A stretch of 64,000 bases of DNA from Thiomicrorhabdus cannonii (GTDB taxonomy: Bacteria > Pseudomonadota > Gammaproteobacteria > Thiomicrospirales > Thiomicrospiraceae). Below, piece after piece: positions 4,821-63,939 of this stretch. The first letter of the stretch is position 1. Every line of letters starts with the position of its first letter. The notes under the pieces are model-generated. The model did not search any database, had not been told where the DNA came from, and saw only the letters and a list, made by a program, of their open reading frames with translations. The translations under genes were made by a program, and so were the position numbers. Location of the stretch: contig NZ_JACBGH010000009.1 in the NCBI RefSeq assembly GCF_013391695.1, positions 1-64,000 of the forward strand, given 5' to 3'.

Positions 4821-4840
4821 AAAAACTCAACAGGCCGGGT
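4821..4840 (+). repeat. Dispersed motif copy 1
   Basis: Perfect AACAGGCCGGGT with the AAAAACTC flank; left arm of the dciA/lpxC terminator. Confidence 0.9.
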
Positions 4841-4850
4841 AAGCGAACCT

Positions 4851-4870
4851 ACCCGGCCTGTTCAGTTTTT
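4851..4870 (-). repeat. Dispersed motif copy 2
   Basis: Perfect core in reverse orientation with the AAAAACTG flank; right arm of the dciA/lpxC terminator. Confidence 0.9.
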
Positions 4871-4891
4871 TCTGGGCGTTTTCCGAAAACC

Positions 4892-5839
4892 TCAGGAAAC
4901 GATCTTGCTGCTGCCGTATTGAATCGGCGCCGGCGCCTTGTCGAAGGTCACAATCTCAAACGCTTCAGGATGCGCCTGCAAGGCACGTAACAACTGGTTG
5001 TTCAACGCATGGCCGGACTTGTGCGCGGTGAACTCACCGATAATCGGATGGCCGATCATATACAAATCCCCCACCGCGTCGAGAATCTTGTGGCGCACAA
5101 ACTCATCCTTGTTGCGCAAGCCCCCGGCGTTCATGACCCCTTTCTCATCCAAACCGATGGCGTTGTCAAGGCTCGCACCCAAGGCCAGATTCTTCTGACG
5201 CAGCATCTCCATGTCTTTCATAAAACCAAAGGTACGCGCGCGGCTGACCTCTTTGAAATAAGAGGTCGAGGAGAATTCCAGGGTCATTTTTTCCGCCGTG
5301 GCGTTAAAAGCCGGATGGTCGAAATCGATCGAGAAATTCAATCTGAAACCGTTGTAGGGATGGAACTCCGCCCAGCCGCCCTTGTCGTTCTCGACGCGGA
5401 CGTTCTCCAGAATGCGGATAAACGCTTTCGGTTTGTCCTGAATCTGGATGCCAGCGGATTGCAACAGGAAGATAAAATGCGACGAACTGCCGTCCATGAT
5501 CGGCACCTCATCCGAAGTGATATCGATATAGAGGTTGTCGATCCCCACGCCGGCCAAGGCCGACATCAAATGTTCGATCGTGGCGATTTTGATGCGCTCG
5601 CCGCGTTCTTCGTTGACAATCGTGGTACACAGCGTGGTTTCGCCGACGATTTCCGGGGTGACTTTGAATTCGACCACCGGCTCGACATCGATGCGGCGGA
5701 AGACGATACCGGTATCGACCGGTGCCGGACGCAAGGTCATAATCGATTCATGCCCGGTATGCAGGCCGATGCCTTTGGCTTTGATAGGGTTCGCGAGGGT
5801 TCTTTGATTCACTGACAACTCTGATACATAAGGCTTCAT
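4892..5839 (-). CDS. lpxC: UDP-3-O-acyl-N-acetylglucosamine deacetylase LpxC
   Basis: LpxC is the zinc enzyme of the first committed step of lipid A synthesis. The 315-residue product has zinc-ligand motifs EHLMSA (His about 90) and RHKILDAVGD (His about 250, Asp about 254), plus SGHALNN with the catalytic His. The open frame extends 12 codons further upstream. I chose the ATG giving MKPYVSEL; a GTG ten codons inside (VNQRTLANPI) matches the usual enteric start better and is possible. Shine-Dalgarno signals are weak for both. In most relatives ftsZ directly precedes lpxC; here ftsA does. Confidence 0.95.
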   Translation of the reverse strand: MKPYVSELSVNQRTLANPIKAKGIGLHTGHESIMTLRPAPVDTGIVFRRIDVEPVVEFKVTPEIVGETTLCTTIVNEERGERIKIATIEHLMSALAGVGIDNLYIDITSDEVPIMDGSSSHFIFLLQSAGIQIQDKPKAFIRILENVRVENDKGGWAEFHPYNGFRLNFSIDFDHPAFNATAEKMTLEFSSTSYFKEVSRARTFGFMKDMEMLRQKNLALGASLDNAIGLDEKGVMNAGGLRNKDEFVRHKILDAVGDLYMIGHPIIGEFTAHKSGHALNNQLLRALQAHPEAFEIVTFDKAPAPIQYGSSKIVS

Positions 5840-5875
5840 TCGGCAAAACGGAATGCAGCGCAAAAAAATTTTCAA

Positions 5876-5991
5876 AATTTTAACACAATTGTCATTCGCG
5901 CCATCATGAAATTAGCCAACGAATTCAACGTGCTCACCGCCGTGGCGAGCAACCTAGGCATCTTTACGCATCAACCAAGAATACAGAAGGA
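5876..5991. other. Gap between ftsA and lpxC where ftsZ is normally found
   Basis: This 116-bp gap holds no ftsZ remnant that I can recognise. It contains an imperfect hairpin (GTGCTCACC against GGCGAGCAAC) without a U-tract, and a 29-codon plus-strand frame from 5906 that I do not believe is a gene. ftsZ is intact elsewhere, at 37464-38711. Confidence 0.6.
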
Positions 5992-7239: not shown

Positions 7240-7294
7240 GTTTTACTTTACCCTTACCACTTAAACGTTCTCTGAACGGAACGATTGCTAAATT

Positions 7295-8002: not shown

Positions 8003-8004
8003 AG

Positions 8005-8024
8005 ACCCGGCCTGTTGAGTTTTT
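8005..8024 (-). repeat. Dispersed motif copy 3
   Basis: Perfect core with the AAAAACTC flank, in the ddl-ftsQ gap, directly upstream of the ftsQ start. Confidence 0.9.
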
Positions 8025-8059
8025 AAAACCCACTTTTTGCGTCATATAATCAGGCTGCC

Positions 8060-10462: not shown

Positions 10463-10804
10463 TTATTGCAATTTTGAGGTGTCCGCAGAGGCGGAATCAA
10501 AAGTGGACAGGCCGGGTGCCTCGACGGGTTCGGGAATCACCCAGAAATACTGGGCGAGAATCGCGGCCAACTCGGAGGGTTTATGCAAAGGATCGGTGAT
10601 TTCAAAATGATTGAGCATGGCGCCTTGCAGCACGCCCTTTTCAAGCGCCTCGTCTATCAGACGCAAAACGAGCTCCGCCGACTCCCCTTGCAACACCCCG
10701 GCTTCGGGATTCCACCACAGGAGCATTTCGGAAAATTCAGTTTGATGGGACACCAGCGGAATCAGCTCGAGCCGAATCCACTGTAGAGGAGTTGAAGAGG
10801 TCAT
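10463..10804 (-). CDS. Hypothetical 113-residue protein between sufS and murC
   Basis: I do not recognise this family. It is acidic and hydrophobic in parts (MLLWWNPEAGVLQGESAELV; ILAQYFWVIPEP), with no signal peptide or membrane segment. The C terminus is low-complexity, rich in Ser, Thr and Asp. It is on the suf strand, 80 bp after sufS, so it may be the last gene of that transcript. A copy of the dispersed motif (11 of 12 bp) lies within its 3' part and encodes APGLST. Codon use looks like that of its neighbours, so it is probably real. Confidence 0.6.
   Translation of the reverse strand: MTSSTPLQWIRLELIPLVSHQTEFSEMLLWWNPEAGVLQGESAELVLRLIDEALEKGVLQGAMLNHFEITDPLHKPSELAAILAQYFWVIPEPVEAPGLSTFDSASADTSKLQ
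10507..10517 (+). repeat. Dispersed motif copy 4 (11 of 12 bases)
   Basis: ACAGGCCGGGT inside the 113-residue hypothetical gene, preceded by AAAAGTGG rather than AAAACTCA. Confidence 0.7.
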
Positions 10805-10884: not shown

Positions 10885-12114
10885 TTACAGCAGCATCTCC
10901 TTGGCCTCTTCAATCGCCGCCACCAAGCGGTCGATATCATCGCGGTTGTTATAGACACCGAAAGAGGCGCGCACCGTGGCCGGCACATTGAAATGCTGCA
11001 TCACCGGCATGGCGCAGTGGTGGCTGGCACGCACCGCAATGCCGTCCTGATCCATCAACGTCGCCAGATCGTGCGGATGGGCACCGTCCAAAATAAACGA
11101 CACCACGCCACCTTTATGCTCGGCTTCACCGATAATACGCACCCCATCAATCTGCTTGAGGCGCTCGGTCGCATAACTCAACAGGCCGGCTTCATAAGCG
11201 GCAATGCGCTCCAAACCAATCGATACCATAAAGCGCATCGCGGCGGCCAGCCCGATGGCGCCGGCGATATTCGGCGTGCCCGCCTCGAACTTATAGGGCA
11301 ACACGTTGTATTCGGTTTTCTCAAAGGTCACCGAATAGATCATATCGCCACCGCCCTGATAGGGCGGCATCGCTTCCAACAAAGCCTCTTTGGCGTAAAG
11401 CACACCGATGCCGGTCGGGCCGTACATTTTATGGCCGGACAGCGCATAAAAATCGCAATCCAGGTCCTGCACATCCACACGCATATGCGGCGTGGCCTGC
11501 GCACCGTCCACCAGGATTTTGGCGCCCACGGAACGCGCGATTTCGACCATCTCTTTGACCGGGTTAATGGTCCCCAAGGCGTTGGACATATGGGTAATGG
11601 CCAACAATTTGGTCTTTTCGGACACCAGGCCTTTCAGCGCGTTCAGACAGACTTCACCACGGTTGTTCATGCGCAGCACCGTCAGACGAATCCCCATCTG
11701 GTCACGCAACAGCTGCCACGGCACGATATTGGAGTGGTGCTCCATCTCAGTGACGATCACTTCATCTCCGGCCTGAAGATTGGCGCGACCCCAGCTATGC
11801 GCCACCAGGTTAATCGCCTCGGTGGTGCCGCGAACAAACACAATCTCCTTGGTGGAGCGCGCGTTCAAAAACTGGCGGCTGGTTTCACGTGCGCCTTCAT
11901 AGAGTTCGGTGGCACGTTCGCTCAGACCGTACACGCCGCGATGCACATTGGCGTTTTGTTCACGATAGTAGCGCTCGATGGTGTCGATGACCATCTGCGG
12001 TTTCTGGGAGGTCGCACCATTATCCAGATAGACCAACGGCTGCCCGTTTTCACGTAGCTGCAAAATCGGGAACTGCGCCCGTACCTGTGCAAAATCCAAC
12101 ACACTGCCGTCCAT
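10885..12114 (-). CDS. sufS: Cysteine desulfurase SufS
   Basis: SufS is a PLP enzyme that takes sulfur from cysteine for Fe-S assembly by SufBCD. The 409-residue product has the PLP lysine motif SGHKMYGPTG and the sulfur-carrying cysteine in RASHHCAMPVM, typical of group II (SufS/CsdA) desulfurases. The start giving MDGSVLDF lies 4 bp after the sufD stop; the upstream extension of the frame overlaps sufD and is rejected. No sufE or sufU partner is seen in the window, so the sulfur-transfer partner must be elsewhere. Confidence 0.95.
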   Translation of the reverse strand: MDGSVLDFAQVRAQFPILQLRENGQPLVYLDNGATSQKPQMVIDTIERYYREQNANVHRGVYGLSERATELYEGARETSRQFLNARSTKEIVFVRGTTEAINLVAHSWGRANLQAGDEVIVTEMEHHSNIVPWQLLRDQMGIRLTVLRMNNRGEVCLNALKGLVSEKTKLLAITHMSNALGTINPVKEMVEIARSVGAKILVDGAQATPHMRVDVQDLDCDFYALSGHKMYGPTGIGVLYAKEALLEAMPPYQGGGDMIYSVTFEKTEYNVLPYKFEAGTPNIAGAIGLAAAMRFMVSIGLERIAAYEAGLLSYATERLKQIDGVRIIGEAEHKGGVVSFILDGAHPHDLATLMDQDGIAVRASHHCAMPVMQHFNVPATVRASFGVYNNRDDIDRLVAAIEEAKEMLL

Positions 12115-16593: not shown

Positions 16594-17589
16594 CTATTCA
16601 GGCTTTAAACAACTCTCAAAGGCGGCACCCAGCTGCAACAGCCATTCGTCATACGGGCGATAAACCACTTCAACGCGCTGACCTGCCGCATCGTAAACCC
16701 CCATCGGGTCGAGATTGCCGATTCTGACATTCAAACCGGACACCACCGCACTGACCCTTTTTTCCGGAAATTGCGGTTCTTTGAAAACACACCGCACCTC
16801 ACCTTCGGTCATCGCCCGACGCAGATTCTGAACACGTTTCAGACTCGGCGTGATTTCGGGATTCAAGGTGATCGAACCGACCCCGTTGAGATGATAATGT
16901 TTTTCGAAGTATTGGTAGGCGTCGTGCAACACCAAATAGGGAGCTTGCCGATAGGGCTGAAGTTGCTGCATCAGCTGCACATCGGTCTGCTCCAGATGCG
17001 CCAGCCATGCCTGGGTACGCGCTTGAATCGACCCGGCCTGTTGAGTTTTCAAACGCTGCAATTTTTCACTGACCGCCAGAATCAAGGCACGGGCATTATT
17101 GGGCGACATCCATAAATGGCCATCAAAGTGCAAGACGGCATGGCCGTGTCCGGCGTGATCGTGTGCATCGGCATGATTGCCGGCGCCCTCATCCTCGTGG
17201 CGCTCATGATGTTTATGCTGCCAAACACCGCCCTCCCGCACCGGCAGTTTTTCCACCGCTTGCAGTTGCGCCATCGCCACATTCGCCTCGGGATAACGCT
17301 GCGCCGCCTTGTGCAGCCAGCTATCCACCGGCGTTCCCACGGAGACAATCAGATCGCTATTCTGCAAGGTGAAAAGATGTGAAGGTTTAAGCTGAAAGCC
17401 ATGCGGGGACACGCCGGGCTCCAGAAGCACCGTCAAGCGGTCATCCTTATCCAGCAAGGGCGCAATCATGCCTGCCAGCGGCGGAATGCTGACGCTAACG
17501 TTAACGGCGTGCGCCGGCATTACTGCGGCGCAGAACCATAGCGAAACGACCTTTGCAAGATTACGCTGTATTTTCATCCACTTTGCCAT
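16594..17589 (-). CDS. znuA: Zinc ABC transporter substrate-binding protein ZnuA
   Basis: ZnuA is the periplasmic zinc receptor of the ZnuABC importer. The 331-residue protein has a signal peptide ending in PAHA, zinc-ligand histidines in SPHGF, DGHLWMSP and LHDAYQYFEKHY, and a long His/Asp-rich loop (about residues 126-152) that is typical of ZnuA. GGGAGAG lies 5 nt before the chosen ATG. A copy of the dispersed motif in the middle encodes KTQQAGS. It is divergent from znuC, with a perfect 8-bp palindrome between them. Confidence 0.95.
   Translation of the reverse strand: MAKWMKIQRNLAKVVSLWFCAAVMPAHAVNVSVSIPPLAGMIAPLLDKDDRLTVLLEPGVSPHGFQLKPSHLFTLQNSDLIVSVGTPVDSWLHKAAQRYPEANVAMAQLQAVEKLPVREGGVWQHKHHERHEDEGAGNHADAHDHAGHGHAVLHFDGHLWMSPNNARALILAVSEKLQRLKTQQAGSIQARTQAWLAHLEQTDVQLMQQLQPYRQAPYLVLHDAYQYFEKHYHLNGVGSITLNPEITPSLKRVQNLRRAMTEGEVRCVFKEPQFPEKRVSAVVSGLNVRIGNLDPMGVYDAAGQRVEVVYRPYDEWLLQLGAAFESCLKPE
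17031..17049 (-). repeat. Dispersed motif copy 5 (within znuA)
   Basis: Perfect core with the AAAACTC flank, read in frame as KTQQAGS in a ZnuA helix. Confidence 0.9.
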
Positions 17590-24136: not shown

Positions 24137-24171
24137 AAAGCCGGGGAATACCCGGCCTGTTGAGTTTTTTT
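24137..24171 (-). terminator. Terminator after the second chemoreceptor gene, one arm supplied by the dispersed motif
   Basis: GCCGGG tattc CCCGGC followed by TTTTTTG on the minus strand is a strong intrinsic terminator. Its upstream arm is the GGCCGGG of a dispersed motif copy. Confidence 0.85.
24150..24171 (-). repeat. Dispersed motif copy 6
   Basis: Perfect core with the AAAAAAACTC flank, forming part of the terminator between the chemoreceptor gene and lgt. Confidence 0.9.
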
Positions 24172-26374: not shown

Positions 26375-27163
26375 CTAGCGTTGCGGATAATTGCCGCGCG
26401 CGATCAGTCCGCCGTCAATCGTCAGAATCGAGCCCGTCATCCAGGCAGCGGCGTCGGACAGCAGATAAGCCGTGGCTTCGCCCATCTCCTCGGTCTTGCC
26501 GTAACGCCCCAGCGGCATACGCTCGCACCACTGGGCTTCGATCTGCGGTTGCGACAAAATCGCCAAAGTGCGCTCCACCGGCACCACACCGGGTGCCAAT
26601 CCGTTGACACGGATGCCGTACTGCCCCCATTCCACCGCCTGCACCTTGGTGATGGCGTCCAGTCCGGCCTTGGAAGCGGCATACGCCGAAAACCATTCGC
26701 ACGTCGCCTGACCGTGGATACTGGTGTTATTGACGATGACACCGCCCTGTTTCGCCTCGATACAAGCCTTGGCAAACGCGGCGCTCAACAGATAGGGCGC
26801 CTGCAGATTCACCGCCAAGGTAGCGGCAAATTTGTCCCCTAACGGGTCCTTAAGCGAGGTGGACTTGGTGACGATCCCCGCGTTATTGACCAAACCGTCC
26901 AGCCCATCAAAGCATGACCCGGCCTGTTCAAAAAAATCGGGCAGATTTTCCAGCCGACTGAAGTCGCAACGCAATACCTGCGCCTGCGCACCCAGCTGCG
27001 TGACCTGCTGCAACGTATTTTCAATGCCGTTTGCATTGCGGTTGTAATGCAGCACCAAGCGGCAACCTTCACGCGCCAGCACCTTGGCCATGCCTGCACC
27101 GATGCCACTGGAGGCGCCGGTAATCAGAATGCGTCTGCCTTTCAACTCGGGAAATCTTGCCAT
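26375..27163 (-). CDS. Short-chain dehydrogenase/reductase
   Basis: This is a classical SDR of about 262 residues. It has the cofactor motif TGASSGIGAGMAKVL, NNAG, a catalytic Ser in NTSIHG and YAASK. The HYNRN after the second strand suggests a preference for NADP. The substrate is unknown; glucose-1-dehydrogenase- or 3-oxoacyl-reductase-like enzymes look closest. A dispersed motif copy encodes EQAGS. It follows murG by 15 bp on the same strand, so it may be read from the dcw transcript, though SDRs are not dcw genes. Confidence 0.85.
   Translation of the reverse strand: MARFPELKGRRILITGASSGIGAGMAKVLAREGCRLVLHYNRNANGIENTLQQVTQLGAQAQVLRCDFSRLENLPDFFEQAGSCFDGLDGLVNNAGIVTKSTSLKDPLGDKFAATLAVNLQAPYLLSAAFAKACIEAKQGGVIVNNTSIHGQATCEWFSAYAASKAGLDAITKVQAVEWGQYGIRVNGLAPGVVPVERTLAILSQPQIEAQWCERMPLGRYGKTEEMGEATAYLLSDAAAWMTGSILTIDGGLIARGNYPQR
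26917..26928 (-). repeat. Dispersed motif copy 7 (within the SDR gene)
   Basis: Perfect 12-bp core; the flank is TTTTTTTG instead of AAAACTC. Encodes EQAGS. Confidence 0.85.
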
Positions 27164-27178
27164 CATACGGACCTTACC

Positions 27179-28273: not shown

Positions 28274-29442
28274 GCTGTTTCTCCTGTTTCAGACCCGGCC
28301 TGTTCAGTTTTCGGCGGCAATCCGCGGCGCGTTTCGTAATCCACGCGAAAGACCAGCGCCAAGGCCGAAAGCAACAGCAGCACGCTACTACCGCCGTAAC
28401 TCATCAACGGCAAGGTCAGCCCTTTGGTCGGGAAAGCACCGAGATTCACACCCATATTGATCATGGCCTGCAAGATAATCCAGATGCCGATGCCGTAGGC
28501 GATCATACCGCCAAAGAAATACTCCTTGTCGAGTGCCTTGCGGCCGATGCGGAACAGGCGATACAGAATGGCCAGATACAACAGAACAAGGAAAAGCACG
28601 CCGATAAAGCCGAACTCTTCACCGTAGATGGAAAACAGGAAGTCGGTATGCGCATCGGGCAGATAGAGCAGTTTCTGCACGCTGCCGCCAATGCCGGCGC
28701 CAAACCACTCGCCCGAGCCGAGCGCAATCAGCGCCTGCGTCAGCTGATAACCGCTGCCGAACGGGTCCTGCCACGGGTCCAGGAAACTGCTGACGCGCGC
28801 CATCCGATAGGGCGATATGACCACCAGAATCGCCAGCAGGCTCGCCATCGGCAGCACCGTCAGCACAAAATAGCGCCAGGGCGCGCCGGCAATCAGCAGC
28901 ATGCCGGTAATCATCACCGCAATCACAAAAGTGGAGCCGTAGTCCGGCTCCATCAGCAGCAGAATCGCCATGACCCCGAACGGCAACGCCAGACGGATAA
29001 CCGCCTCGAAACTCTCCTTGACGGCATTCGCGTGGCGGTTCAGGTAACCCGCCATAAAGACGACGATGACCAGTTTCATAAATTCGGAGGGTTGGAAATT
29101 CATTACCAGCAGCGGCAACCAGCGTTTACTGCCGTTGATTTCTCGGCCGACGATCAACACCAGCACCAACAGAAACAGCGCAAACAGGAAGAGTTTGCCG
29201 CGATGCTTTTCCCAGAAGGAGAGCGGGATTTGAAAGAGGATATAGGCGGCGGCAAACCCGAGTCCTACCGAAAAGAGCTGGCGCATAAAATAGTGCGTGC
29301 TGTCGCCAAAACGTTTTTCGCTGATGGCGATGGAGCTGGACGCCACCATCATCAAGCCGATCACCAGCAACAGGCTGATCAGCCCCACCAGCCAGAAATC
29401 AATCGGCCATTGCTGGCTCTGCTGACGCCAACGCGCCAACAT
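28270..29442 (-). CDS. ftsW: Septal peptidoglycan polymerase FtsW
   Basis: FtsW is a SEDS-family lipid II polymerase that works with FtsI. The 390-residue protein has about ten membrane segments and the conserved periplasmic loops around SGEWFGAGIGGS and GVNLGAFPTKGLTLPLMSYGGSS. The extreme C terminus contains a dispersed motif copy encoding KTEQAGS. Confidence 0.97.
   Translation of the reverse strand: MLARWRQQSQQWPIDFWLVGLISLLLVIGLMMVASSSIAISEKRFGDSTHYFMRQLFSVGLGFAAAYILFQIPLSFWEKHRGKLFLFALFLLVLVLIVGREINGSKRWLPLLVMNFQPSEFMKLVIVVFMAGYLNRHANAVKESFEAVIRLALPFGVMAILLLMEPDYGSTFVIAVMITGMLLIAGAPWRYFVLTVLPMASLLAILVVISPYRMARVSSFLDPWQDPFGSGYQLTQALIALGSGEWFGAGIGGSVQKLLYLPDAHTDFLFSIYGEEFGFIGVLFLVLLYLAILYRLFRIGRKALDKEYFFGGMIAYGIGIWIILQAMINMGVNLGAFPTKGLTLPLMSYGGSSVLLLLSALALVFRVDYETRRGLPPKTEQAGSETGETA
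28293..28311 (-). repeat. Dispersed motif copy 8 (ftsW 3' end)
   Basis: Perfect core with the AAAACTG flank; encodes KTEQAGS near the FtsW C terminus. Confidence 0.9.
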
Positions 29443-32036: not shown

Positions 32037-33515
32037 TCAAATAGCATGTGCCGCTTTAATCGGCTCCACCACCTTTTCCATACGCGCGCTGCGGGAGCCT
32101 TTCACCAGAACGTTATCGACCTGGCCTTCCGCGAGCAGCTGCAATACACGCGCCGCCATCAACTCGTGCGACGCATAAAAAGCCGCCTGCTCGCCAAATG
32201 CCTGCGGCATGGCCGAGGCCGCCTCACCGTACACTAGCAGATAATCCACGCCTTTTTCACGCGCATAGGCGGCAACTTCCCGGTGCGCAGCCTCACTGCC
32301 GGCACCCAGTTCGCCCATCGCGCCCAGACATAAAACGCAGCGCCCCGGCAAACTCACCAAGGTGTCAATCCCCGCCTTGACCGACGCCGGATTGGCATTA
32401 TAGCTGTCGTCAATCAACCAGCCCTTGGGCAGACGCGTTTTTTGCAGTCTTCCGGCAACCCCGCCAAAACTCAACAGGCCGGGTAGTATCTGCGGCCATT
32501 CCAGTCCGGCCGCCATACAGACTGCGACACAGGCGGCGGCATTAAGCGCATTATGCTTACCCAAAAGCGGCATTGTAACCGTTTGCAACTGCCCTTTCAC
32601 TGACAATTCAAAACGACTCGTTTCGCTGTCGGCGGCATAACTCAGTAAACGCACATCGGCGCTTTCCGCCTCGCCAAAACACAGGCTATTCTCCACCCCC
32701 AAACGGGCGATTTCAGCCTGCCAGTAATCAAAACCGGGCGAATCGGTATTCAAAATCGCAAAGCCGTTGCCATGCAGGCGGTTCAAACCCAGAAAAATCT
32801 CGCCCTTGGTCTCGATCACGCCCTGCAGCGAACCGAACCCCTCCAGATGGGCGCCCGACGCGTTGTTGAGCAACGCGATATCCGGCTCGGCCAACAAGGT
32901 CAAATACTCAATCTCTTTGCGATGGTTCGCGCCCATCTCGATAATCGCAAACTCATGTTCCGGACGCAAATTCAGCAGCGTCCGCGGCACGCCGAAATCG
33001 TTATTCAGATTGCCTTCGGTCGCCAAAGTCTTGCCGACATTGGAGAACAGATTCAACAGCATCGCCTTGGTGGTGGTTTTGCCGTTGCTGCCGGTTACGG
33101 CGATAAGCTTCTTCACCGGCATCTGACGCCGGTGCCAACGGGCAAACTGCCCCAACGCCAAACGGGTATCCTCGACCAGAATCGCCGGTACGGCACAGTC
33201 GACCACCTCAGAAACCAGTACCGCCGCCGCGCCCTGCTTGACGGCATCCTCAATAAACGCGTGGCCGTCAAAGCGCTCGCCCTTGATGGCGGCATACAGA
33301 TCACCCGGCTTGATGTTGCGGCTGTCGGTACTCACACCACCAAAACGCACGGGGATTTCGCTGCAAGGGCCAAGCCACTCGCCCTGCACGCTCTCCTGCA
33401 GCTGCGTCAGCTCCCAGCTGAAAGCCGCATCCTGAATACTTTCCTGCACCTTGAGTTGCTGTTCCATTCTATTAACCTGCTGTTGCGGCGTCAGACCGTC
33501 CTGCATCTTGTTCAT
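32037..33515 (-). CDS. murF: UDP-N-acetylmuramoyl-tripeptide--D-alanyl-D-alanine ligase MurF
   Basis: MurF adds the D-Ala-D-Ala made by Ddl. The core matches the family (STDSRNIKPGDLYAAIKGERFDG, ITVTGSNGKTTTK-like AVTGSNGKTTTKAM). I chose the ATG preceded by GAGGG, 13 bp after murE, giving about 492 residues. That includes a Gln/Glu-rich extension of roughly 35 residues before the usual start; an internal ATG at 33467 would give the more typical length. A dispersed motif copy encodes PGLLSFGG. Confidence 0.94.
   Translation of the reverse strand: MNKMQDGLTPQQQVNRMEQQLKVQESIQDAAFSWELTQLQESVQGEWLGPCSEIPVRFGGVSTDSRNIKPGDLYAAIKGERFDGHAFIEDAVKQGAAAVLVSEVVDCAVPAILVEDTRLALGQFARWHRRQMPVKKLIAVTGSNGKTTTKAMLLNLFSNVGKTLATEGNLNNDFGVPRTLLNLRPEHEFAIIEMGANHRKEIEYLTLLAEPDIALLNNASGAHLEGFGSLQGVIETKGEIFLGLNRLHGNGFAILNTDSPGFDYWQAEIARLGVENSLCFGEAESADVRLLSYAADSETSRFELSVKGQLQTVTMPLLGKHNALNAAACVAVCMAAGLEWPQILPGLLSFGGVAGRLQKTRLPKGWLIDDSYNANPASVKAGIDTLVSLPGRCVLCLGAMGELGAGSEAAHREVAAYAREKGVDYLLVYGEAASAMPQAFGEQAAFYASHELMAARVLQLLAEGQVDNVLVKGSRSARMEKVVEPIKAAHAI
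32466..32484 (+). repeat. Dispersed motif copy 9 (within murF)
   Basis: Perfect core with the AAAACTC flank; antisense to the gene, read as PGLLSF. Confidence 0.9.
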
Positions 33516-33528
33516 ACCCTCGTCCCGC

Positions 33529-35061
33529 TCAAGAGCGCGCTGCAAACCACGCCTCGACGACCTGCTGGTCGCTGAAAGAATGGCGCACGCCGGCAATCTC
33601 CTGATAGGCTTCATGCCCTTTGCCCGCAATCACCACCACATCGTCAACGACGGCATGTTGCAGCGCATACTCAATCGCCGCATGGCGATCCTCGATCACG
33701 ATGACTTGGTCGACATCGGCAAAACCGGCCAGCGTGTCATTAAAAATCTGCTGTGGCGACTCATGGCGCGGATTATCGCTGGTCAGCACCACCTTATCCG
33801 CTAGAGCCTCGGCAACCGCGGCCATCAACGGGCGCTTGCCGCGATCGCGGTCGCCGCCGCAACCGAACACCACCCACAACCGCCCGGAGGATTCCGCCGG
33901 AAAATGCGCTTTTACCGCCTGCAACACATTTTGCAAAGCGTCCGGCGTATGGGCAAAGTCCACCAGCACGGTGGGGCGCTCGGCCACCTTGTGCATCCGC
34001 CCCTTGACTGCCTTCAACGCCGGCAAGACCGCGCAGGCCGCCGCCCAGTCAAAACGGCACGCCATCAGGATACCCAATGCACAGAGGACGTTTTCGAGAT
34101 TGAAACGGCCCATCAGATTCAAGCGGACCTCGCAGGGCGCTTCGGCAAACTGCAGCGCCAAGTGCATGCCGGTTACATCCAGCGTGGCGCTCTGACAGCA
34201 AAGATTCACCCCTCTGCCGCAGCCGCAAGCCTCATGACACGGCTGCACGCTGTAGGCAAGAGCCTGCGGACAGTTTGCCAGCAACTGCTGGCCCAGACTG
34301 TCGCAGGCATTCAACACCCTAAAGCGGCTTTCATAATCGCTGAACAAGCTGCGCTTGGCATCGCGGTAGTCGGCTTCGTCGGCATGAAAATCGAGATGGT
34401 CGCGCGTCACCTGTGTCAGCGCAACACATTCAAACGCCACGCCCGCTACCCGTCCCAGACGCAAGGCGTGGGACGAAACCTCCATCACCACCCAGTTGGC
34501 ACCGGCCTTTGCAAAATCATGCAGTAAGCGCTGCACGCTGACCACATCCGGCGTGGTGTTTTGCGTGTCGCTCAGGCGGGTTTCGCCACTGGCGCGCATC
34601 AAGCCGTGGCCGAGCGTGCCGATCAGGGCGGGCGTCTGTCCGAGCACCGCCAGACTCTGCGCCAGATAGTGCGCGGTGGAGGTTTTGCCGTTGGTGCCGG
34701 TAATGCCGACCACCTTCAGGCGGCGGCTCGGCGCATCATAAAACCAGTTGGCCAGCGCGGCGAGGCGTGTCTGTAAATCCGTCACCACCCAGACAAGCGG
34801 CGCTGACGGCAGCGTCGCATACCCGGCCTGTTCAGTTTCTGTGAGCGGCCGATCCGTCAAAATCACGGAGGCTCCCTGCCGGCCGGCTTGCGCTAAAAAA
34901 TCCAAACCGTGCTTCTGGCCGCCCTGAATCGCAATAAAGACGTCGTTTTCCTGCAAGGCGCGGGAGTCGAGGTGCAAATCCCCCACGCGCTGCGCGGCGA
35001 GCCCCTCATCCAATTCACCCGCCGGTTGCAGATGGGCAAACAGTTCCGCCAGCGTCTTCAT
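33529..35061 (-). CDS. murE: UDP-MurNAc-L-Ala-D-Glu--meso-diaminopimelate ligase MurE
   Basis: MurE adds the third amino acid. The DNPR motif (TSDNPRHES) marks the meso-diaminopimelate-specific type. The 510-residue protein carries the ATP loop GITGTNGKTST and the conserved VMEVSSHAL. It lies 24 bp downstream of ftsI. A dispersed motif copy near the N terminus encodes TEQAGYA. Confidence 0.97.
   Translation of the reverse strand: MKTLAELFAHLQPAGELDEGLAAQRVGDLHLDSRALQENDVFIAIQGGQKHGLDFLAQAGRQGASVILTDRPLTETEQAGYATLPSAPLVWVVTDLQTRLAALANWFYDAPSRRLKVVGITGTNGKTSTAHYLAQSLAVLGQTPALIGTLGHGLMRASGETRLSDTQNTTPDVVSVQRLLHDFAKAGANWVVMEVSSHALRLGRVAGVAFECVALTQVTRDHLDFHADEADYRDAKRSLFSDYESRFRVLNACDSLGQQLLANCPQALAYSVQPCHEACGCGRGVNLCCQSATLDVTGMHLALQFAEAPCEVRLNLMGRFNLENVLCALGILMACRFDWAAACAVLPALKAVKGRMHKVAERPTVLVDFAHTPDALQNVLQAVKAHFPAESSGRLWVVFGCGGDRDRGKRPLMAAVAEALADKVVLTSDNPRHESPQQIFNDTLAGFADVDQVIVIEDRHAAIEYALQHAVVDDVVVIAGKGHEAYQEIAGVRHSFSDQQVVEAWFAARS
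34821..34838 (-). repeat. Dispersed motif copy 10 (within murE)
   Basis: Perfect core with the AAACTG flank; encodes ETEQAGY. Confidence 0.9.
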
Positions 35062-41271: not shown

Positions 41272-41283
41272 AACAGGCCGGGT
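41272..41283 (+). repeat. Dispersed motif copy 11
   Basis: Perfect core, flanked by CTTTTG, in the rnpB-yjfB gap. Confidence 0.85.
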
Positions 41284-41523: not shown

Positions 41524-42846
41524 CTAGGGCGCGGCCTGCATGACCGGACCGCGCGGTTTTTCGGCACGCAACTCGCGTGCCAGCACCTTGGCGACCTCAT
41601 TGCGATAGAGGTAATAGGGCACCTGCTCGTTAATCATCAACACAAACGGCAACCAGTCCTGCTGCTGTTGGATATAACCGGCCAGTGCGCTGACGCCGAT
41701 CAGTGAGCCGGACTTGGCAAACACTCCCTGCTCAACTTCCGGCAACAACGCCTTCCAGGGGCGAAACGCCTCCAGCAACGCCACCAATTGCTGCGGACTC
41801 AAACGGTTATTGCGCGACAACCCCGCCCCCTCTTCGATATAGGCTCCCTGCCAGTCAAAGTGAGCGGCCAGCTGTTCGGCAAACAGGCGTCTGACCTTGT
41901 CGGCACTGGCCGGCGCGCCGTAGAGTTCAGCGCTCAATTTCAACGCCAGCTGATTGGCAATAAAGTTGGTGGAATACTTCATCATCGGCTTGACCACCTC
42001 CGCCAACGTCATCGCATTCCAATGGCGGTAGAACGGTTGGGCATCATTCGCCACTTTTGCCCAGCGCACCTCGTCACCCATGACTGTCCCCTGCTGCCGC
42101 AGAAACGCCGCCAGCAGCTCAGCAAAATAGCGCTGCCCGACCTGGGCATCCGTACCGTTATTGATGCGCTGCTTGCCCGGCTTTAAATCCCGCCCCAAGG
42201 CTTGCGCCAACGGCGTCAGCGGCGTTTGCGGTTCGGCCGACACCACTTTGCCGCCGATTTTGGCGAGATAGAGCGTATTGAAATTCGCCGCCAGCGCCGA
42301 GGGCACCGCATCATACGGATTATCGCTGCTGCCGCTGCCGGGCAGCGTCAGATCGCTATCGAAATAACTCACATCCAAGACAATGCCATCCAACCGCCCC
42401 ACCCCGGCCTGTTGAAAACGCGTCTGCAAATTGGCGGCCACGCGCTGCAACTCTTCGGACGTCAAAAACGGATCGCCGTAGCCTTTCACCCGTAAATAGC
42501 GCTTATCCTGATGGGTCTGCAAAAAGAAATCGGTTTTAAAGCGGTGCTCCGCGCCCCAGTGCGACAAGGCGATAAACGCCGTCACCAATTTGGTGGTTGA
42601 GGCCGGCACAAAGGCTTCACCGGCCGCTTTGCTGACCAGCGGCGTCTTGTGACTGTCCAGCACCAGCAAACCGGCCTGCTGCATCTGCGATAATTCCGGC
42701 AACGCCTGCCAAACGGCAGCCTCCGACGCCGCCTGTGCCGGCGCAACCGGGAGAGTCGTCACAACGCCAAGCAACGCGCCAACCAATAGCCCCTGTCTGC
42801 AAACACGCCTGAATTGCACAAACCGCTTAGTCATTGCCAACGTCAT
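41524..42846 (-). CDS. dacB: D-alanyl-D-alanine carboxypeptidase/endopeptidase DacB (PBP4, S13 family)
   Basis: DacB is a periplasmic class C penicillin-binding protein that trims or cuts peptidoglycan cross-links. The 440-residue protein has a signal peptide ending APAQA, SxxK as ASTTK, SxN as YSTNF, and KSG (FAKSGSLIG) in place of KTG. A second ATG four codons in (42834) may be the true start. A near copy of the dispersed motif encodes FQQAG. Confidence 0.93.
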   Translation of the reverse strand: MTLAMTKRFVQFRRVCRQGLLVGALLGVVTTLPVAPAQAASEAAVWQALPELSQMQQAGLLVLDSHKTPLVSKAAGEAFVPASTTKLVTAFIALSHWGAEHRFKTDFFLQTHQDKRYLRVKGYGDPFLTSEELQRVAANLQTRFQQAGVGRLDGIVLDVSYFDSDLTLPGSGSSDNPYDAVPSALAANFNTLYLAKIGGKVVSAEPQTPLTPLAQALGRDLKPGKQRINNGTDAQVGQRYFAELLAAFLRQQGTVMGDEVRWAKVANDAQPFYRHWNAMTLAEVVKPMMKYSTNFIANQLALKLSAELYGAPASADKVRRLFAEQLAAHFDWQGAYIEEGAGLSRNNRLSPQQLVALLEAFRPWKALLPEVEQGVFAKSGSLIGVSALAGYIQQQQDWLPFVLMINEQVPYYLYRNEVAKVLARELRAEKPRGPVMQAAP

Positions 42847-42883
42847 CCACCCAAAACCGCTTTAAATTCGCCTGAAAAAACCC

Positions 42884-42895
42884 AACAGGCCGGGT
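42884..42895 (+). repeat. Dispersed motif copy 12
   Basis: Perfect core with AAAAAACCC flank in the dacB-rsmJ divergent gap. Confidence 0.88.
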
Positions 42896-42978
42896 CGTCG
42901 GCCTTTTTCAAACCCGACGCAAACCAAACCGTTATAATAGCGCCAACTTATCCACCTGTCTGTAAGCGTTCCGGTTTT

Positions 42979-45396: not shown

Positions 45397-47244
45397 TTAA
45401 TCAAAATCCGCTTTTCGCAACAGATTCAAAAACTCAAAACCAAAGCGTGCCAGCTTGCTCTGCCCTACGCCGTTGATCGCCAGCAATTCGCCGTCGGTTT
45501 GCGGTTTGTGTTGCGCCATCTCGCGCAACACCGCATCGTTGAATACCTGATAGGCCGGAATATCCTCGCTTTGGGCAATCTCGCGGCGTAGCGCACGCAG
45601 CTGCTCAAACAGCGCCAGCTCCTCCGGTGCCAGATCGGCGCGCGCACCACCCGGCCTGCCCACTTTTGGCGCCGCCTTTTTCGGCAACGCCAACTGTAAG
45701 TCCACCTCGCCTCTTAAAACCGCTTTGGCCGACGGCGTGAGACGCAGCACCGAATAGTGCTGGATATCCTGATACAGATACCCCAGATGCACCAGCTGGC
45801 GGATAATGCTCAGCCATGCCTCGCCGCTGAACTCCTTGCCGATGCCGTAGGTGCTCAACTGATCATGCTTGAGATCGCGGATGCGCTCGGTGTTCTGGCC
45901 GCGCAGCACCTCCACCACATGACGCGCGCCGAATCCCTGATTCAAACGGTAAACGCACGACAACACCTTCTGCGCCGCCACCTTGCCGTCAAACAGCTGC
46001 GGCGGATTCAGGCAGACATCGCAATTGCCGCAAGGCTTCTGGCTCGGTTCGGCAAAATAGTTCAGCAATACATTGCGCCGGCAGGTCTGCGATTCGGCAA
46101 AGGCCACCATGCTGGAGAGTTTGAACTGCTCGATGCGGCGCTGCTCCTCATTGCCGATCTGCTCGACAAAATACTGCGCGGTGGCCACATCCTGCATCGA
46201 AAACAGCAGCAACGCCTCGCTTTCCAGCCCATCGCGCCCGGCGCGGCCGGTTTCCTGATAATAGCCTTCGATGTTTTTGGGCAGATCGTAATGCACCACA
46301 AAACGCACATTGGGCTTGTCGATGCCCATGCCGAACGCCACCGTGGCCACTACTATATCGATCTCATCGCGCAGAAAACGCTGATGCACCGCATCGCGAA
46401 TCTGTGCGGGCAAGCCGGCATGGTAGGCGGCGGCGCGGTAGCCTTCGGCCTTCAACGCCTCGGCCACCTCCTCGACGCGTTTGCGGCTCAAGGCGTAGAC
46501 CACCCCGCATTCCGCCGTCTGTCCGAGTCCGCGCGCCTCCAGAAACTGCAGCAGCTGCTTCATCGGCTGGCGTTTTTCCAGCACCGTATAGCGGATATTG
46601 GGGCGGTCGAAACTGCTGATATGCACCCGCGCCTGTTGCAAGCCCAGACGCTGCAGAATATCCTCGCGCGTCACCCGGTCGGCGGTCGCCGTCAGTGCAA
46701 TAAACGGCACCTGCGGAAAATGCTGGCGCAACTGGCCAATCTGACTGTATTCCGGACGGAAATCATGACCCCACTGCGAAATACAGTGCGCCTCGTCAAT
46801 CGCAAACAGGGCAATCGGCAGGCTTTGCAAACGTTGCATAAAGTTGGCGTTCAGCAACCGTTCGGGCGACACATACAGCAGATCCAACTCGCCGCGGTGC
46901 AGTTTGGCCAACACCTCAACCGACTGCTCGCGATCCATCGCCGAATTATAATAAGCGGCCGACACGCCGTTGGCCTGCAACGCCGAGACCTGATCCTGCA
47001 TCAGCGCAATCAGCGGCGACACCACAATCGCCGTGCCCGCACGCATCAACGCCGGAATCTGATAACACAACGACTTGCCGCCGCCGGTCGGCATCAGCAC
47101 AAAACAGTCGCGTCCGGCCGCCACATCCTCGATAATCGCCGCCTGCAACGGCCTAAACGCATCGTAACCGTACACGCGCTGCAATACGCCCAAAGCGGCT
47201 TGGCGCAAATCTGACGCATTTAAATTCTCAACAGGCCGGGTCAT
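45397..47244 (-). CDS. recQ: ATP-dependent DNA helicase RecQ
   Basis: RecQ is a 3'-5' helicase in recombinational repair. The protein (about 615 residues) has Walker A MPTGGGKSLCYQ, the box AIDEAHCISQWGHDFRPEY, the RecQ zinc cluster (CRRNVLL, CGNCDVC) and a C-terminal HRDC domain. The start giving MTRPVENLN fits homologues; an ATG seven codons upstream (47265) is possible. The first codons lie on a dispersed motif copy. It is divergent from the Spy-like gene. Confidence 0.95.
   Translation of the reverse strand: MTRPVENLNASDLRQAALGVLQRVYGYDAFRPLQAAIIEDVAAGRDCFVLMPTGGGKSLCYQIPALMRAGTAIVVSPLIALMQDQVSALQANGVSAAYYNSAMDREQSVEVLAKLHRGELDLLYVSPERLLNANFMQRLQSLPIALFAIDEAHCISQWGHDFRPEYSQIGQLRQHFPQVPFIALTATADRVTREDILQRLGLQQARVHISSFDRPNIRYTVLEKRQPMKQLLQFLEARGLGQTAECGVVYALSRKRVEEVAEALKAEGYRAAAYHAGLPAQIRDAVHQRFLRDEIDIVVATVAFGMGIDKPNVRFVVHYDLPKNIEGYYQETGRAGRDGLESEALLLFSMQDVATAQYFVEQIGNEEQRRIEQFKLSSMVAFAESQTCRRNVLLNYFAEPSQKPCGNCDVCLNPPQLFDGKVAAQKVLSCVYRLNQGFGARHVVEVLRGQNTERIRDLKHDQLSTYGIGKEFSGEAWLSIIRQLVHLGYLYQDIQHYSVLRLTPSAKAVLRGEVDLQLALPKKAAPKVGRPGGARADLAPEELALFEQLRALRREIAQSEDIPAYQVFNDAVLREMAQHKPQTDGELLAINGVGQSKLARFGFEFLNLLRKADFD
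47225..47241 (+). repeat. Dispersed motif copy 13 (recQ 5' end)
   Basis: Perfect core with TTCTC flank; in recQ frame it reads TRPVEN, directly after the start Met. Confidence 0.9.
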
Positions 47245-47383
47245 CACAGGTCTTGGGCATTCCATAAAAAGGCTGGCAAAAATAGACCAATTAACGGCAA
47301 ATTACAAGGTGGATTTGCAATAACCGGGTTTCGTGCTATGTTATCCACCTGTTTGCAAACAAGCGGTAAAAGGAATCCAAACC

Positions 47384-49440: not shown

Positions 49441-50463
49441 TTAACGGTAGTTGGCGCGCTGCATCAGCGTCACCGCCTCGTTCTGCAAGGCGCCGATTCT
49501 TTCCAGACCGAGCTGATCCTGTTTAAAATCGCCCCACGAATAAACAATCGCGTCGACCGGCACCTGCGGATTGACCGAGAACTCCTTATTCAGCGCGGCA
49601 AACAGCTCCTGGGCACGGTCACTGGCGAGCCAGTCCAGCAGACGGTTGGCGGCCTCAACATGCTTGGCGTGCTTCAGCACCCCCGCTCCGGAAACATTGA
49701 CATGCGCGCCGGTGGTATTTTGATTGGCCCAGAAGAGTTTCAAGGGCGCATCCGGCTTTTCCTGCTGCAAACGGCCGAAATAGTAAGTGTTTACAATCCC
49801 GACATCGCACTGCCCCGCCAGAATCGCTTCCATTACCTGCGAATCCTTCGCCATGGGCGCAGCCGCCAGATTATCCACCCAGCCTGCCAGCATTTTGGCG
49901 GTGGCCGCTTCGCCGTTGTGCGCCAGCAAAGCCGCTACCAGCGATTTGTTGTAAACCTTTTTGGAGGTTCTCAAGCACAAACGATCCTTCCACTGCGGCT
50001 CCGCCAGAGCTTCGTAAGTAGACAGCTCCTCCGGGCGGACGCGCTCGGTGCTATAGACGATGGTACGCGCACGGATCGACAAACCGCTCCACAGCCCCTT
50101 GGGATCGCGCAAATGCGCGGGCACGGCTTTTTCCACCTGCGGCGCGTTCATCGGCTGAAACAACCCTTGCGACGCGGCATACCAAAGATTCCCCGCATCC
50201 ACCGTCATCAGCACATCCGCCGGCGTCCGCTCCCCCTCGGCCTTAACACGCTCGATCAGCGCATTATCCTTGCCGGTCAAATAGGAAACCTTAATACCGG
50301 TATCCTGAGTAAACGCCTCAAATACCGGCTTAATGAGATGCTCGGTGCGCGAACTGTACACCACCACTTCCTGCGCATAGGCAAAGATTGGTGCCATGAA
50401 CGACAAAGCCGCTGCCACAATGGTCGCCGCATACCCGGCCTGTTGAGTTTTTTTGAACGTCAT
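49441..50463 (-). CDS. Iron(III) ABC transporter substrate-binding protein (FbpA/IdiA type)
   Basis: The 340-residue periplasmic protein has a signal peptide ending AYAQ, an N-lobe VVVYSSRTEHLIKPV and the iron-binding tyrosine pair in NTYYFGRL. The signal peptide contains a dispersed motif copy encoding KKTQQAGYAA. It is preceded by the ATPase gene (31 bp) and followed by the permease: ATPase-receptor-permease rather than the usual FbpABC order. Confidence 0.92.
   Translation of the reverse strand: MTFKKTQQAGYAATIVAAALSFMAPIFAYAQEVVVYSSRTEHLIKPVFEAFTQDTGIKVSYLTGKDNALIERVKAEGERTPADVLMTVDAGNLWYAASQGLFQPMNAPQVEKAVPAHLRDPKGLWSGLSIRARTIVYSTERVRPEELSTYEALAEPQWKDRLCLRTSKKVYNKSLVAALLAHNGEAATAKMLAGWVDNLAAAPMAKDSQVMEAILAGQCDVGIVNTYYFGRLQQEKPDAPLKLFWANQNTTGAHVNVSGAGVLKHAKHVEAANRLLDWLASDRAQELFAALNKEFSVNPQVPVDAIVYSWGDFKQDQLGLERIGALQNEAVTLMQRANYR
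50433..50454 (-). repeat. Dispersed motif copy 14 (signal peptide of the iron receptor)
   Basis: Perfect core with AAAAAAACTC flank; encodes KKTQQAGY. Confidence 0.9.
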
Positions 50464-60356: not shown

Positions 60357-61262
60357 TTACTCCGACCCCTCTTTCAGGGCAAGCACGCGGTTATAAACCG
60401 CCTTTTTCTTCTGACCGCTCAACTCCACCACAATATCGGTAATCTGCTTGACCGGCAGCTGCTGTTTCAACAAAGCCCCAATCAGCGCGTCGTGTTCGTC
60501 TTCGCAAACCGCTTCAGCCACCACATCGCCCATCACCATCAACACAAACTCGCCACGCACCTTGTCCGCATGACTCTCAAAATAGGCCACCACCTCCGCC
60601 ACGCTGCCGGACACAAACTGCTCATAGGTTTTGGTCATTTCGCGCGCCGCCACCATCTGCCGCTCGCCGCCGAACACCTCGAGCATCGCTTGCAGCGACT
60701 CTGTCAGACGGTGCGGTGATTCGTAAAACACCAAGGTACGCGTGTCGTTTTTGAGGGTTTGCAGCACCTGCAAACGCCTCTGTTTTTTGGCCGGCAGAAA
60801 GCCTTCGTAACTGAAACGGTCGGTCGGCAGGCCGGCCGCGCACAAGGCGGTAATCACCGCCGACGGCCCCGGAATCGGCACCACCTTCACGCCCTGCTGA
60901 CGCAGCAGCTTCACCAGATGAAAGCCCGGATCGTTGATCAGCGGCGTCCCCGCATCCGACACCAGCGCGCCGCTTTCTCCGGCCTGGAGTTTTTCCAGCA
61001 GTTGCTGGCTGCGCGCCTGCTCGTTATGGTCGTGCAGACTCAACAGCGGCTTATTCACCCCCAACGCCTGCAACAGCCTTTGCGTATGACGCGTATCCTC
61101 GGCGGCAATCCAGTCCACCGCCCCCAACACCTCCACCGCACGGTAGGTGATGTCTTTGAGGTTACCGATCGGGGTCGCCACGATATATAAGGTCGCTTTG
61201 GAAGTGGCATTGGCCAACCCGGCCTGCTGAGTTTGGTTTACTTGGGTTTCGGTCACGTTCAA
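60357..61262 (-). CDS. rsmI: 16S rRNA (cytidine1402-2'-O)-methyltransferase RsmI
   Basis: RsmI (YraL) adds the 2'-O-methyl group to C1402 of 16S rRNA, next to the N4-methyl group made by RsmH. The 301-residue protein has the tetrapyrrole-methylase fold: LYIVATPIGNLKDITYRA, AEDTRHTQRLL, VSDAGTPLINDPG and VPIPGPSAVITAL. The N terminus contains a near copy of the dispersed motif (TQQAG). Divergent from lpoA. Confidence 0.95.
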   Translation of the reverse strand: MNVTETQVNQTQQAGLANATSKATLYIVATPIGNLKDITYRAVEVLGAVDWIAAEDTRHTQRLLQALGVNKPLLSLHDHNEQARSQQLLEKLQAGESGALVSDAGTPLINDPGFHLVKLLRQQGVKVVPIPGPSAVITALCAAGLPTDRFSYEGFLPAKKQRRLQVLQTLKNDTRTLVFYESPHRLTESLQAMLEVFGGERQMVAAREMTKTYEQFVSGSVAEVVAYFESHADKVRGEFVLMVMGDVVAEAVCEDEHDALIGALLKQQLPVKQITDIVVELSGQKKKAVYNRVLALKEGSE

Positions 61263-61394
61263 ACGTCTCTTATTTATGTGTCACTTATCAAAAGGATAGC
61301 GACTGCAAATCGCCACCCATCAAGGCCGTTTCACTATATAATCTTCTGCAAGATTCACTTGCCAAGGCATCGCCTGTTATTAGCCTGTTTCACT

Positions 61395-63056: not shown

Positions 63057-63075
63057 AACCGCGCAGGAACCCGCC

Positions 63076-63459
63076 ATGCAGCGCACCTTACGCGGTCTCA
63101 AAAACAAACTCTTCGGCCACGCCAAAGAGCAGGACGCGGCGAAGTGGCTGCAACAGCGCGGCTTTGAAATCGTCGCGCAAAACTACCGCTTCAACAAAGC
63201 CGAAATCGATCTGATCGGCTTGCATAACACCGAGCAACGTCTGGTGTTTTTCGAGGTCAAATACCGTCAAAACGCCGATTACGGCCACCCGGCCGAACAG
63301 CTCAGCGCCGCCCAGCAAGCCCGCATCCGTCTGGCGGCGCAACATTTCCTGCTGACCCACCCACACTATGCGGATTACAGCATGCAGTTCGACCTGCTGG
63401 CCTATAGCGACGACATTCTCGAACCGCAGCATATCGAAAACGCCTTTGGCTTTTTCTAA
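63076..63459 (+). CDS. yraN: YraN family protein (UPF0102, endonuclease-like fold)
   Basis: This 127-residue member of UPF0102 has the nuclease-like core: AAKWLQQRGFEIVAQNYRF, then AEIDLIG and VFFEVKYRQ (E-x-D-x-I and E-V-K motif, as in PD-(D/E)XK enzymes). The activity is unproven. It lies 19 bp downstream of lpoA. Confidence 0.9.
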   Translation: MQRTLRGLKNKLFGHAKEQDAAKWLQQRGFEIVAQNYRFNKAEIDLIGLHNTEQRLVFFEVKYRQNADYGHPAEQLSAAQQARIRLAAQHFLLTHPHYADYSMQFDLLAYSDDILEPQHIENAFGFF

Positions 63460-63479
63460 CCTCCTCGAGCCATTTTCAG

Positions 63480-63908
63480 ATGAGTGCCTATCTTTCGCTG
63501 TTTGCCGTTTCCTTTATCGCCGCCACACTGCTGCCGGCCGGCTCGGAAGTGCTGCTCGGCAGCTTGCTGCTGGAAGGTTATGAACCCTGGGCACTCTGGG
63601 CCTGGGCAACGGCAGGCAATACACTCGGCGCGGCGGTCAATTACGGCCTCGGGCGCTATCTGCTGCATTTTCAACACCGCCGCTGGTTTCCCTTTAAAGC
63701 CGATACTCTGCACAAAAGCCAGAGCTGGTTCAATAAATACGGCGTATGGAGCCTGCTGTTTTCGTGGATGCCGCTGTTTGGCGATGCCTTGACCTTTATC
63801 GCCGGCATGATGCGCGTTAATTTCGGGCTGTTTGTGCTGCTGACGTTTATCGGCAAAGGCGTGCGTTATGCGGTGTTGGTGGGCTTAGTGGATTGGTTTG
63901 CAGCCTGA
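63480..63908 (+). CDS. YqaA-family membrane protein (DedA/SNARE-associated type)
   Basis: The 142-residue membrane protein resembles YqaA: SFIAATLLPAGSEVLLG, ATAGNTLGAAVNYGLGR and KYGVWSLLFSWMPLFGDALT are characteristic, with about four hydrophobic segments. Function unknown. It follows yraN by 20 bp; the standard partner diaA is not seen. Confidence 0.85.
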   Translation: MSAYLSLFAVSFIAATLLPAGSEVLLGSLLLEGYEPWALWAWATAGNTLGAAVNYGLGRYLLHFQHRRWFPFKADTLHKSQSWFNKYGVWSLLFSWMPLFGDALTFIAGMMRVNFGLFVLLTFIGKGVRYAVLVGLVDWFAA

Positions 63909-63917
63909 AAACCGGTT

Positions 63918-63939
63918 AAAAAAACTCAACAGGCCGGGT
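63918..63939 (+). repeat. Dispersed motif copy 15
   Basis: Perfect core with AAAAAAACTC flank, 10 bp after the yqaA stop. Confidence 0.9.

Follow-up and report, generated by a model that had tools for sequence, protein, structure and literature searches.

A dispersed 12-bp word in Thiomicrorhabdus cannonii, probably one dialect of a DNA-uptake signal in Thiomicrospiraceae

According to the available sections of PMC12616744, DNA-uptake signals are known in two bacterial families only. These are the DNA uptake sequences (DUS) of Neisseriaceae, which have eight dialects, and the uptake signal sequences (USS) of Pasteurellaceae (AAGTGCGGT / ACAAGCGGT), and the part of PMC1852404 available to us describes head-in pairs of copies for both, and as favoured in Neisseria meningitidis. 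Here we describe a 12-bp word, AACAGGCCGGGT, which is dispersed through a 64,000-nucleotide stretch of the Thiomicrorhabdus cannonii genome (contig NZ_JACBGH010000009.1, positions 1 to 64,000, hereafter the window) and through the rest of that genome. The word is probably the form that a DNA-uptake signal sequence of Thiomicrospiraceae takes in this species, one dialect among several, and the best reading is that the signal evolved independently, in a third bacterial family. What the data support is a word that looks and evolves like an uptake signal, which is less than proof of uptake; uptake, a receptor, biased import as the driver and a role in termination are what we infer from its properties.

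The window contains 14 perfect copies of AACAGGCCGGGT, 6 on the plus and 8 on the minus strand, at exactly the positions given by the first-pass annotation, together with four copies with one mismatch (Table 1). The 11-mer reported there at 10507 is the one-mismatch 12-mer beginning one base earlier, and the orientation of 7 plus and 8 minus holds once this copy is added. The chance expectation of about 0.01 copies per window was reproduced by 100 dinucleotide shuffles of the window (mean 0.01). The word also occurs outside the window, and the several hundred copies that had been anticipated were found: the whole genome (2.49 Mb, 59 contigs) carries 482 exact copies, about one per 5.2 kb, against a single copy of the reversed control word. 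Both strands are used evenly in this genome (242/240), as is expected of an uptake signal, and likewise in the relatives G016 (137/138), G038 (95/124), G039 (106/130) and G044 (129/135). In 464 kb of the genome (19%; 21 stretches, of which one is the window and the other 20 lie on contig C1) it was the most over-represented 12-mer, with 94 copies against 0.11 expected. The predicted top rank therefore stands for this hit-rich sample, which is all that the ranking covers; its count is biased upward because the stretches were chosen with the hit list known and some hit-poor ones were skipped, a bias of which the window's own count is free.

The core of the word is preceded in this genome by AAAACT(C/G), and the A-rich upstream flank noted earlier was borne out over the 94 copies (A 76-89% at -6 to -4, T 94% at -2, C or G 95% at -1). 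Two A-tracts could be distinguished, at -9 to -4 and at -22 to -18, and the bases between them are not A-rich. Both tracts are present in the 29 single copies well inside genes (A 63% and 53%, on a background of 22.5% A in this test and about 23% in the genome sample), in 49 other single copies (69% and 42%) and in the 16 paired copies (81% and 61%). The inner positions are nearly invariant: the mismatch falls on one of the four outer positions in 32 of the 39 one-mismatch copies, and on one of the eight inner positions (CAGGCCGG) in the remaining 7. By crude gene calls, 34 of the 94 copies lie in genes and 60 lie outside or at a gene edge, and since 86% of the sample is coding, the copies are enriched outside genes. 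Within genes the favoured reading frame is the one that encodes Gln-Ala-Gly (19 of 34). All eight close pairs in the sample are head-in, 22-26 bp apart and outside genes, with the A-tracts on the outer side in the order of a terminator, the role predicted for them; one such pair lies in the window (4829-4862), and 78 of the 94 copies belong to no close pair. The earlier placement of copies in gaps, terminator-like pairs and coding regions agrees with this distribution.

The family, which we take to be Thiomicrospiraceae and whose members are free-living sulfur oxidizers, was represented by 62 genomes of seven genera (g1-g7, of which g3 and g6 are presumably Hydrogenovibrio and Thiomicrospira), and the order-level set consisted of the same 62. 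The closest relatives of a protein encoded in the window are in a Thiotrichales metagenome-assembled genome (MAG; 96% identity) and in Thiomicrorhabdus, the genus being understood here in a broad sense. Among the 32 genomes of the genus, exact AACAGGCCGGGT is abundant in two, this genome (G000) and G016 (275 copies); the other 30 have 0-3. The k-mer counts in short stretches of the relatives revealed other words in its place. The commonest dialect is ACCAGGCCTGGT; G003, G026 and G027 use forms near AACAGGCCTGTT, G006 uses ACCGGCCGGT, G013 and G021 (pooled) use AGCAGGCCTGCT, G038 uses TGCCAGGCTGGG, and G039 and G044 use TGCCAGGTTGGG. There are thus at least seven dialects, all of them containing C(A/C)GG, the kind of conserved inner core around which the dialects of an uptake signal vary. 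GGCC is found in five of the seven, and most are palindromes around it, with an A-tract close to the core on each side. TGCCAGGCTGGG and TGCCAGGTTGGG lack GGCC and are not palindromes; the asymmetric dialects are those of G000/G016 and of G038/G039/G044, each with a strong tract on one side, and in the latter group the flank is AAAATCTG (31 copies). CCGGCCGG was rejected as the word of G013 and G021, whose pooled stretches show AGCAGGCCTGCT and no CCGGCCGG; the flank pool labelled CCGGCCGG consists of G006 sites alone (n=16).

Counted over complete genomes, CMGGCCKG passed a threshold of our own (250 or more copies and no less than fivefold its reversed control) in 35 of the 62 genomes, and in 27 of those 35 the commonest dialect, counted as CCAGGCCTGG, has 106-856 copies (control 0-2). 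CCAGGCCTGG did not exceed 46 copies in any of 365 other Gammaproteobacteria (369 sampled less four of the family). TGCCAGGYTGGG has 219, 236 and 264 copies in G038, G039 and G044, respectively, and at most 3 in the other 59 genomes. A cognate word was found in 38 of the 62 family genomes. The 24 genomes without a word by these counts, several of which were screened for other words in short stretches only, comprise 14 of g1, four of g2, one of g3, one of g4 and four of g5. AACAGGCCGGGT is, on these counts, one dialect of a family-wide system, a point absent from the first-pass annotation.

Some unusual k-mers of the relatives turned out to be of other kinds. Those of G009 and G052 are tandem repeats and were rejected as dispersed words, and those of G031 and G001 look, by look only, like other repeats and not dialect words. 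In G031 (L162, L228, L229) a repeat that includes CTTAGCTGCC is present about 98 times in 60 kb, and G001 (L124, L125) has 37-38 copies of a GC-rich repeat with GTGGATTGAAAC, which resembles an array of clustered regularly interspaced short palindromic repeats (CRISPR). In G017-G019 and G023-G025, which are without the word, 60 distinct runs of 7-11 G followed by ARAAATTTT were found in 130 kb (L149-L151, L155-L157, L164, L286-L289), where a second-order model fitted to the same sequence predicts 9.5, and stretches of G004, G005 and G010 have 0-1 such runs per 40 kb. The G-run with ARAAATTTT is possibly a different uptake-like signal.

Sister genomes indicate how the dialects replace one another. 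Blocks of the window align with G003, G026 and G027 at about 65-86% identity and with G016 at about 90%, and these blocks take in 5 of the 14 exact window copies. At the two alignable sites within genes (26917 and 32473), the sister dialect was found in five of six comparisons, having arisen by substitution in ungapped alignments; in the sixth, G027 at 32473, the core is lost. At these two sites the in-gene copies have arisen by substitution, as expected of an uptake signal. The expectation that sister genomes hold the word at orthologous sites was borne out for G016, where it is identical, but not for the other sisters, which mostly have their own dialect. Identical core words were conserved in 6 of 11 cases between G003 and G026 and in 5 of 13 between G003 and G027, against 5-9% for control 8-mers; any core word was matched in 2 of 6 cases between G026 and G027 and in 6 of 8 between G000 and G016 (controls 40-43%), all of these being small numbers from shared genomes.

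Mobile DNA was examined in one prophage and in 20 kb of a G001 contig. The prophage stretch of 36.7 kb (within C1:50.6-89.8 kb, L106-L108) encodes a Mu-type portal, tail sheath and tape measure, with a D12-class adenine methylase gene near one end. It contains no exact AACAGGCCGGGT against 8.1 expected, and one copy with up to one mismatch against 11.3 expected, the expectations being those at the density found elsewhere in the sample. In G001, the initial 20 kb of the second contig (97 kb) has 2 copies of CCAGGCCTGG against about 7 from the genome average. A 41-kb gap on C1 was set aside as evidence of word avoidance; such a gap is not improbable by itself (P 0.17), and the prophage contrast is the better test.

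In the mechanism that we propose, a putative surface receptor, perhaps on a type IV pilus, would bind the core, and the flanking A-tracts would ease bending or melting while the retracting pilus pulls the DNA in. ComEC would pass one strand to the cytoplasm, and homologous recombination would replace the local allele. Because tagged alleles would be imported preferentially, chance near-matches would be driven to the full word genome-wide, in and outside genes and on both strands. Neighbouring copies may be co-opted as terminators, and a shift in receptor preference would convert old sites in place to the new dialect. A longer history can be sketched tentatively, which we hold possible rather than probable: a third uptake-signal system, independent of those of Neisseriaceae and Pasteurellaceae, may have begun with an ancestral word of two-fold symmetry (A-tract, ACCAGGCCTGGT, T-tract) and a likewise symmetric receptor to read it, this receptor may have drifted through at least seven dialects and at least twice to an asymmetric word, and the subclade of G017-G019 and G023-G025 may have replaced the word by the unrelated G-run signal followed by ARAAATTTT.

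Several observations weigh against an uptake signal. The uptake role is drawn from the properties of the sequence, and the dialects were assigned from the words. Most dialects are palindromic and flanked by A-tracts on both sides. DUS and USS are not described in this form, which would be suited to an intracellular dimeric protein as well; the A-tracts are weak in the pool of g6 and g7. The prophage does contain six matches with up to two mismatches (16.9 expected) and eight copies of CMGGCCKG. Core words of G000 were matched in only 2 of 15 cases in G003, 3 of 14 in G026 and 3 of 14 in G027, most of the G000 core words in this set not being full copies; this comparison, also of small numbers from shared genomes, is weak support. 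The comEC gene of this very genome is interrupted by the prophage, 592 codons lying at C1:88.05-89.83 kb and the C-terminal part at C1:50.57-51.35 kb on the same strand, which suggests that the present strain may not transform now and that the word would reflect a longer past. Transposable elements that interrupt comEC in Piscirickettsia salmonis are the subject of PMC12955456. A ComEC domain, from one of the competence genes that the first-pass annotation proposed to look for, was found in 56 of the 62 family genomes, 36 of the 38 with a word but also 20 of the 24 without, so ComEC hardly separates the two groups and was dropped as a separator. Two models tried for the receptor gave little: ComP_DUS (PF16732) scored over its cut-off in none of the 62 genomes, with one match below it, and GspH/FimT (PF12019) in three of the 62, all three without a word. 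Among the pilin-like proteins of the six genomes read, none was net basic, save one frame in L271 that overlaps an open reading frame on the opposite strand.

As for the pilus machinery, each of the six genomes searched has pilus-type ATPases, one longer and one or more shorter. In this genome two neighbouring shorter ATPases on C1 may be PilT/PilU and another may be Tad-type, judged by size only. A cluster on C14 carries a secretin, best matched in NCBIfam by MshL, and an ATPase, best matched by PilB, though neither match reaches its curated cut-off; a cluster on C17 reads as type II secretion. Two clusters of long acidic pilin-like proteins of about 250-500 aa were also observed (L271 6271-12144 and L122 263-3998), several of which carry a PCPD(T/S)D-like stretch, and long pilin-like frames are present in the five other genomes read.

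Taken together, the abundance, strand balance, in-gene copies, head-in pairs, AT-rich tracts, nearly invariant core, dialects and scarcity in the prophage make the word fit a DUS- or USS-type uptake signal better than any rival considered here, as the first-pass annotation had proposed. The main competitor is a site bound genome-wide by a dimeric protein that is nucleoid-associated or organises the chromosome, and whose changes the dialects would track. It keeps this place because most dialects are two-fold symmetric with A-tracts on both sides, and the chromosome carries sites throughout. The dialects of G000/G016 and G038/G039/G044 do not suit it, being asymmetric with a strong tract on one side, and neither the absence from the 37-kb prophage nor the head-in pairing would be predicted; in G038 a crude look found a mild skew, with 58 of the 95 plus-strand copies in the first half of contig C1. 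We regard such a site as unlikely. An iterated palindrome like HIP1 (highly iterated palindrome 1) of cyanobacteria, kept by a DNA methyltransferase reading GGCC and by repair, is a good deal less likely still. HIP1 has been linked to methylases, as far as the available text of PMC4390886 goes, and five of the seven dialects share GGCC, but a GGCC-methylase word does not fit because the two dialects TGCCAGGCTGGG and TGCCAGGTTGGG, for all their copies in G038, G039 and G044, have neither GGCC nor a palindrome, and the words are 10-12 bp long with A-tracts beyond.

A stereotyped transcription-terminator stem, with no recognition signal in it, would account for the extragenic close pairs in terminator order, and several single palindromic sites in the relatives extend into longer inverted repeats; the many unpaired copies and those within genes, with their A-tracts, make this very improbable as the whole explanation. 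The two remaining readings, which the first-pass annotation had also judged to fit less well, have the slightest chance of all. A dispersed repeat or miniature transposon, of the repetitive extragenic palindrome (REP) or miniature inverted-repeat transposable element (MITE) kind, agrees with the many extragenic copies and inverted pairs, but no longer inserted unit is shared: by eye, the 29 in-gene copies have nothing in common beyond the word and its A-tracts, and the sisters align without gaps through 26917 and 32473. A signal for recombination, such as Chi, or for segregation, such as the FtsK-orienting polar sequences (KOPS), would also be a short and abundant word, but the strands are balanced, the palindromic dialects have no direction, and the copies are enriched outside genes.

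Table 1. Exact and one-mismatch copies of AACAGGCCGGGT in the window (ORF, open reading frame; related genomes by their handles)
Feature	Position	Strand	Context
Exact copy	4829..4840	+	Left arm of inverted pair; flanked by convergent ORFs 4367-4801 (+) and 4892-5875 (-); A-tract on outer side; dyad resembling a terminator
Exact copy	4851..4862	-	Right arm of inverted pair begun at 4829; 22 bp start to start
Exact copy	8005..8016	-	Between minus-strand ORFs 7295-8002 and 8060-8965
One-mismatch copy GACAGGCCGGGT	10506..10517	+	
One-mismatch copy AACAGGCCGGCT	11180..11191	+	Mismatch at outer position 11
Exact copy	17031..17042	-	Within ORF 16594-17589 (-); both upstream A-tracts present
Exact copy	24150..24161	-	Between ORFs 23231-24034 (-) and 24188-26227 (-); word identical in sister G016
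Exact copy	26917..26928	-	Within ORF 26375-27166 (-); identical in G016; G003 AGCAGGCCTGGT, G026 AACAGGCCTGGT, G027 AACAGGCCTGGT
Exact copy	28293..28304	-	3' end of ORF 28270-29442 (-); G003 and G026 diverged, without word
Exact copy	32473..32484	+	Within ORF 32037-33629 (-); G003 TGCAGGCCTGTC, G026 GACAGGCCTGGC, G027 ACCAGACCCGGC
Exact copy	34821..34832	-	Within ORF 33529-35061 (-); word identical in G016
Exact copy	41272..41283	+	Upstream flank ACCTTTTG, not AAAACTC
One-mismatch copy AACAGGCCGGGG	42402..42413	-	Mismatch at outer position 12
Exact copy	42884..42895	+	Within an ORF (42862-43500 - or 42814-43836 +)
Exact copy	47230..47241	+	5' end of RecQ-family helicase ORF 45397-47265 (-)
Exact copy	50433..50444	-	5' end of ORF 49441-50463 (-)
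One-mismatch copy AGCAGGCCGGGT	61217..61228	-	Mismatch at outer position 2
Exact copy	63928..63939	+	Directly after ORF 63480-63908 (+)

Among the literature matches listed, whose scope leaves out most subscription literature, there was no report of AACAGGCCGGGT or of uptake signals in Thiomicrospiraceae. A third case of an uptake signal, if true, would let the origin, spread and change of such signals be studied in an independent replicate. The close dialects and the wordless relatives within one family could be used to test whether dialects isolate species, which protein is the reader, and whether the signal is adaptive or a by-product of biased import.

As compared to the known systems, HIP1 shares with the present words a high degree of iteration and, in most dialects, the palindrome. 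Unlike HIP1, the words here form dialects between related species, include asymmetric forms and have flanking tracts, and no single methylase site (GGCC) is common to all of them, the words of G038, G039 and G044 having neither GGCC nor symmetry. The likeness to DUS is closer and consists of a word of 10-12 bp, dialects a few bases apart around a conserved inner core, head-in pairs and a similar share of copies in genes, which in Neisseria meningitidis is 635 of 1,874 (five table rows summed here, from the part of PMC1852404 at hand). The A-tracts and palindromic dialects are unlike DUS, the DUS core CTG, as given in the accessible part of PMC3630211, is absent from ACCGGCCGGT of G006, and ComP, the DUS receptor, has no match over the cut-off in the family. 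With USS the word shares many copies on both strands, terminator-like pairs, dialects, and a layout of about 32-34 bp in all, in which two AT-rich stretches flank the core on one side. In USS the core is followed by two T-tracts, again from the available sections of PMC12616744, which corresponds to AACAGGCCGGGT read on the other strand; this one-sided arrangement belongs to the dialect of this genome, in genes too, and not to all dialects. The USS core GCGG given in the same sections is absent from all seven words, the form in most relatives here is a palindrome flanked by A-tracts left and right, and uptake and receptor, unlike those of USS, are inferred. In its working the word looks like both DUS and USS, and by sequence and known receptor it looks like a member of neither.

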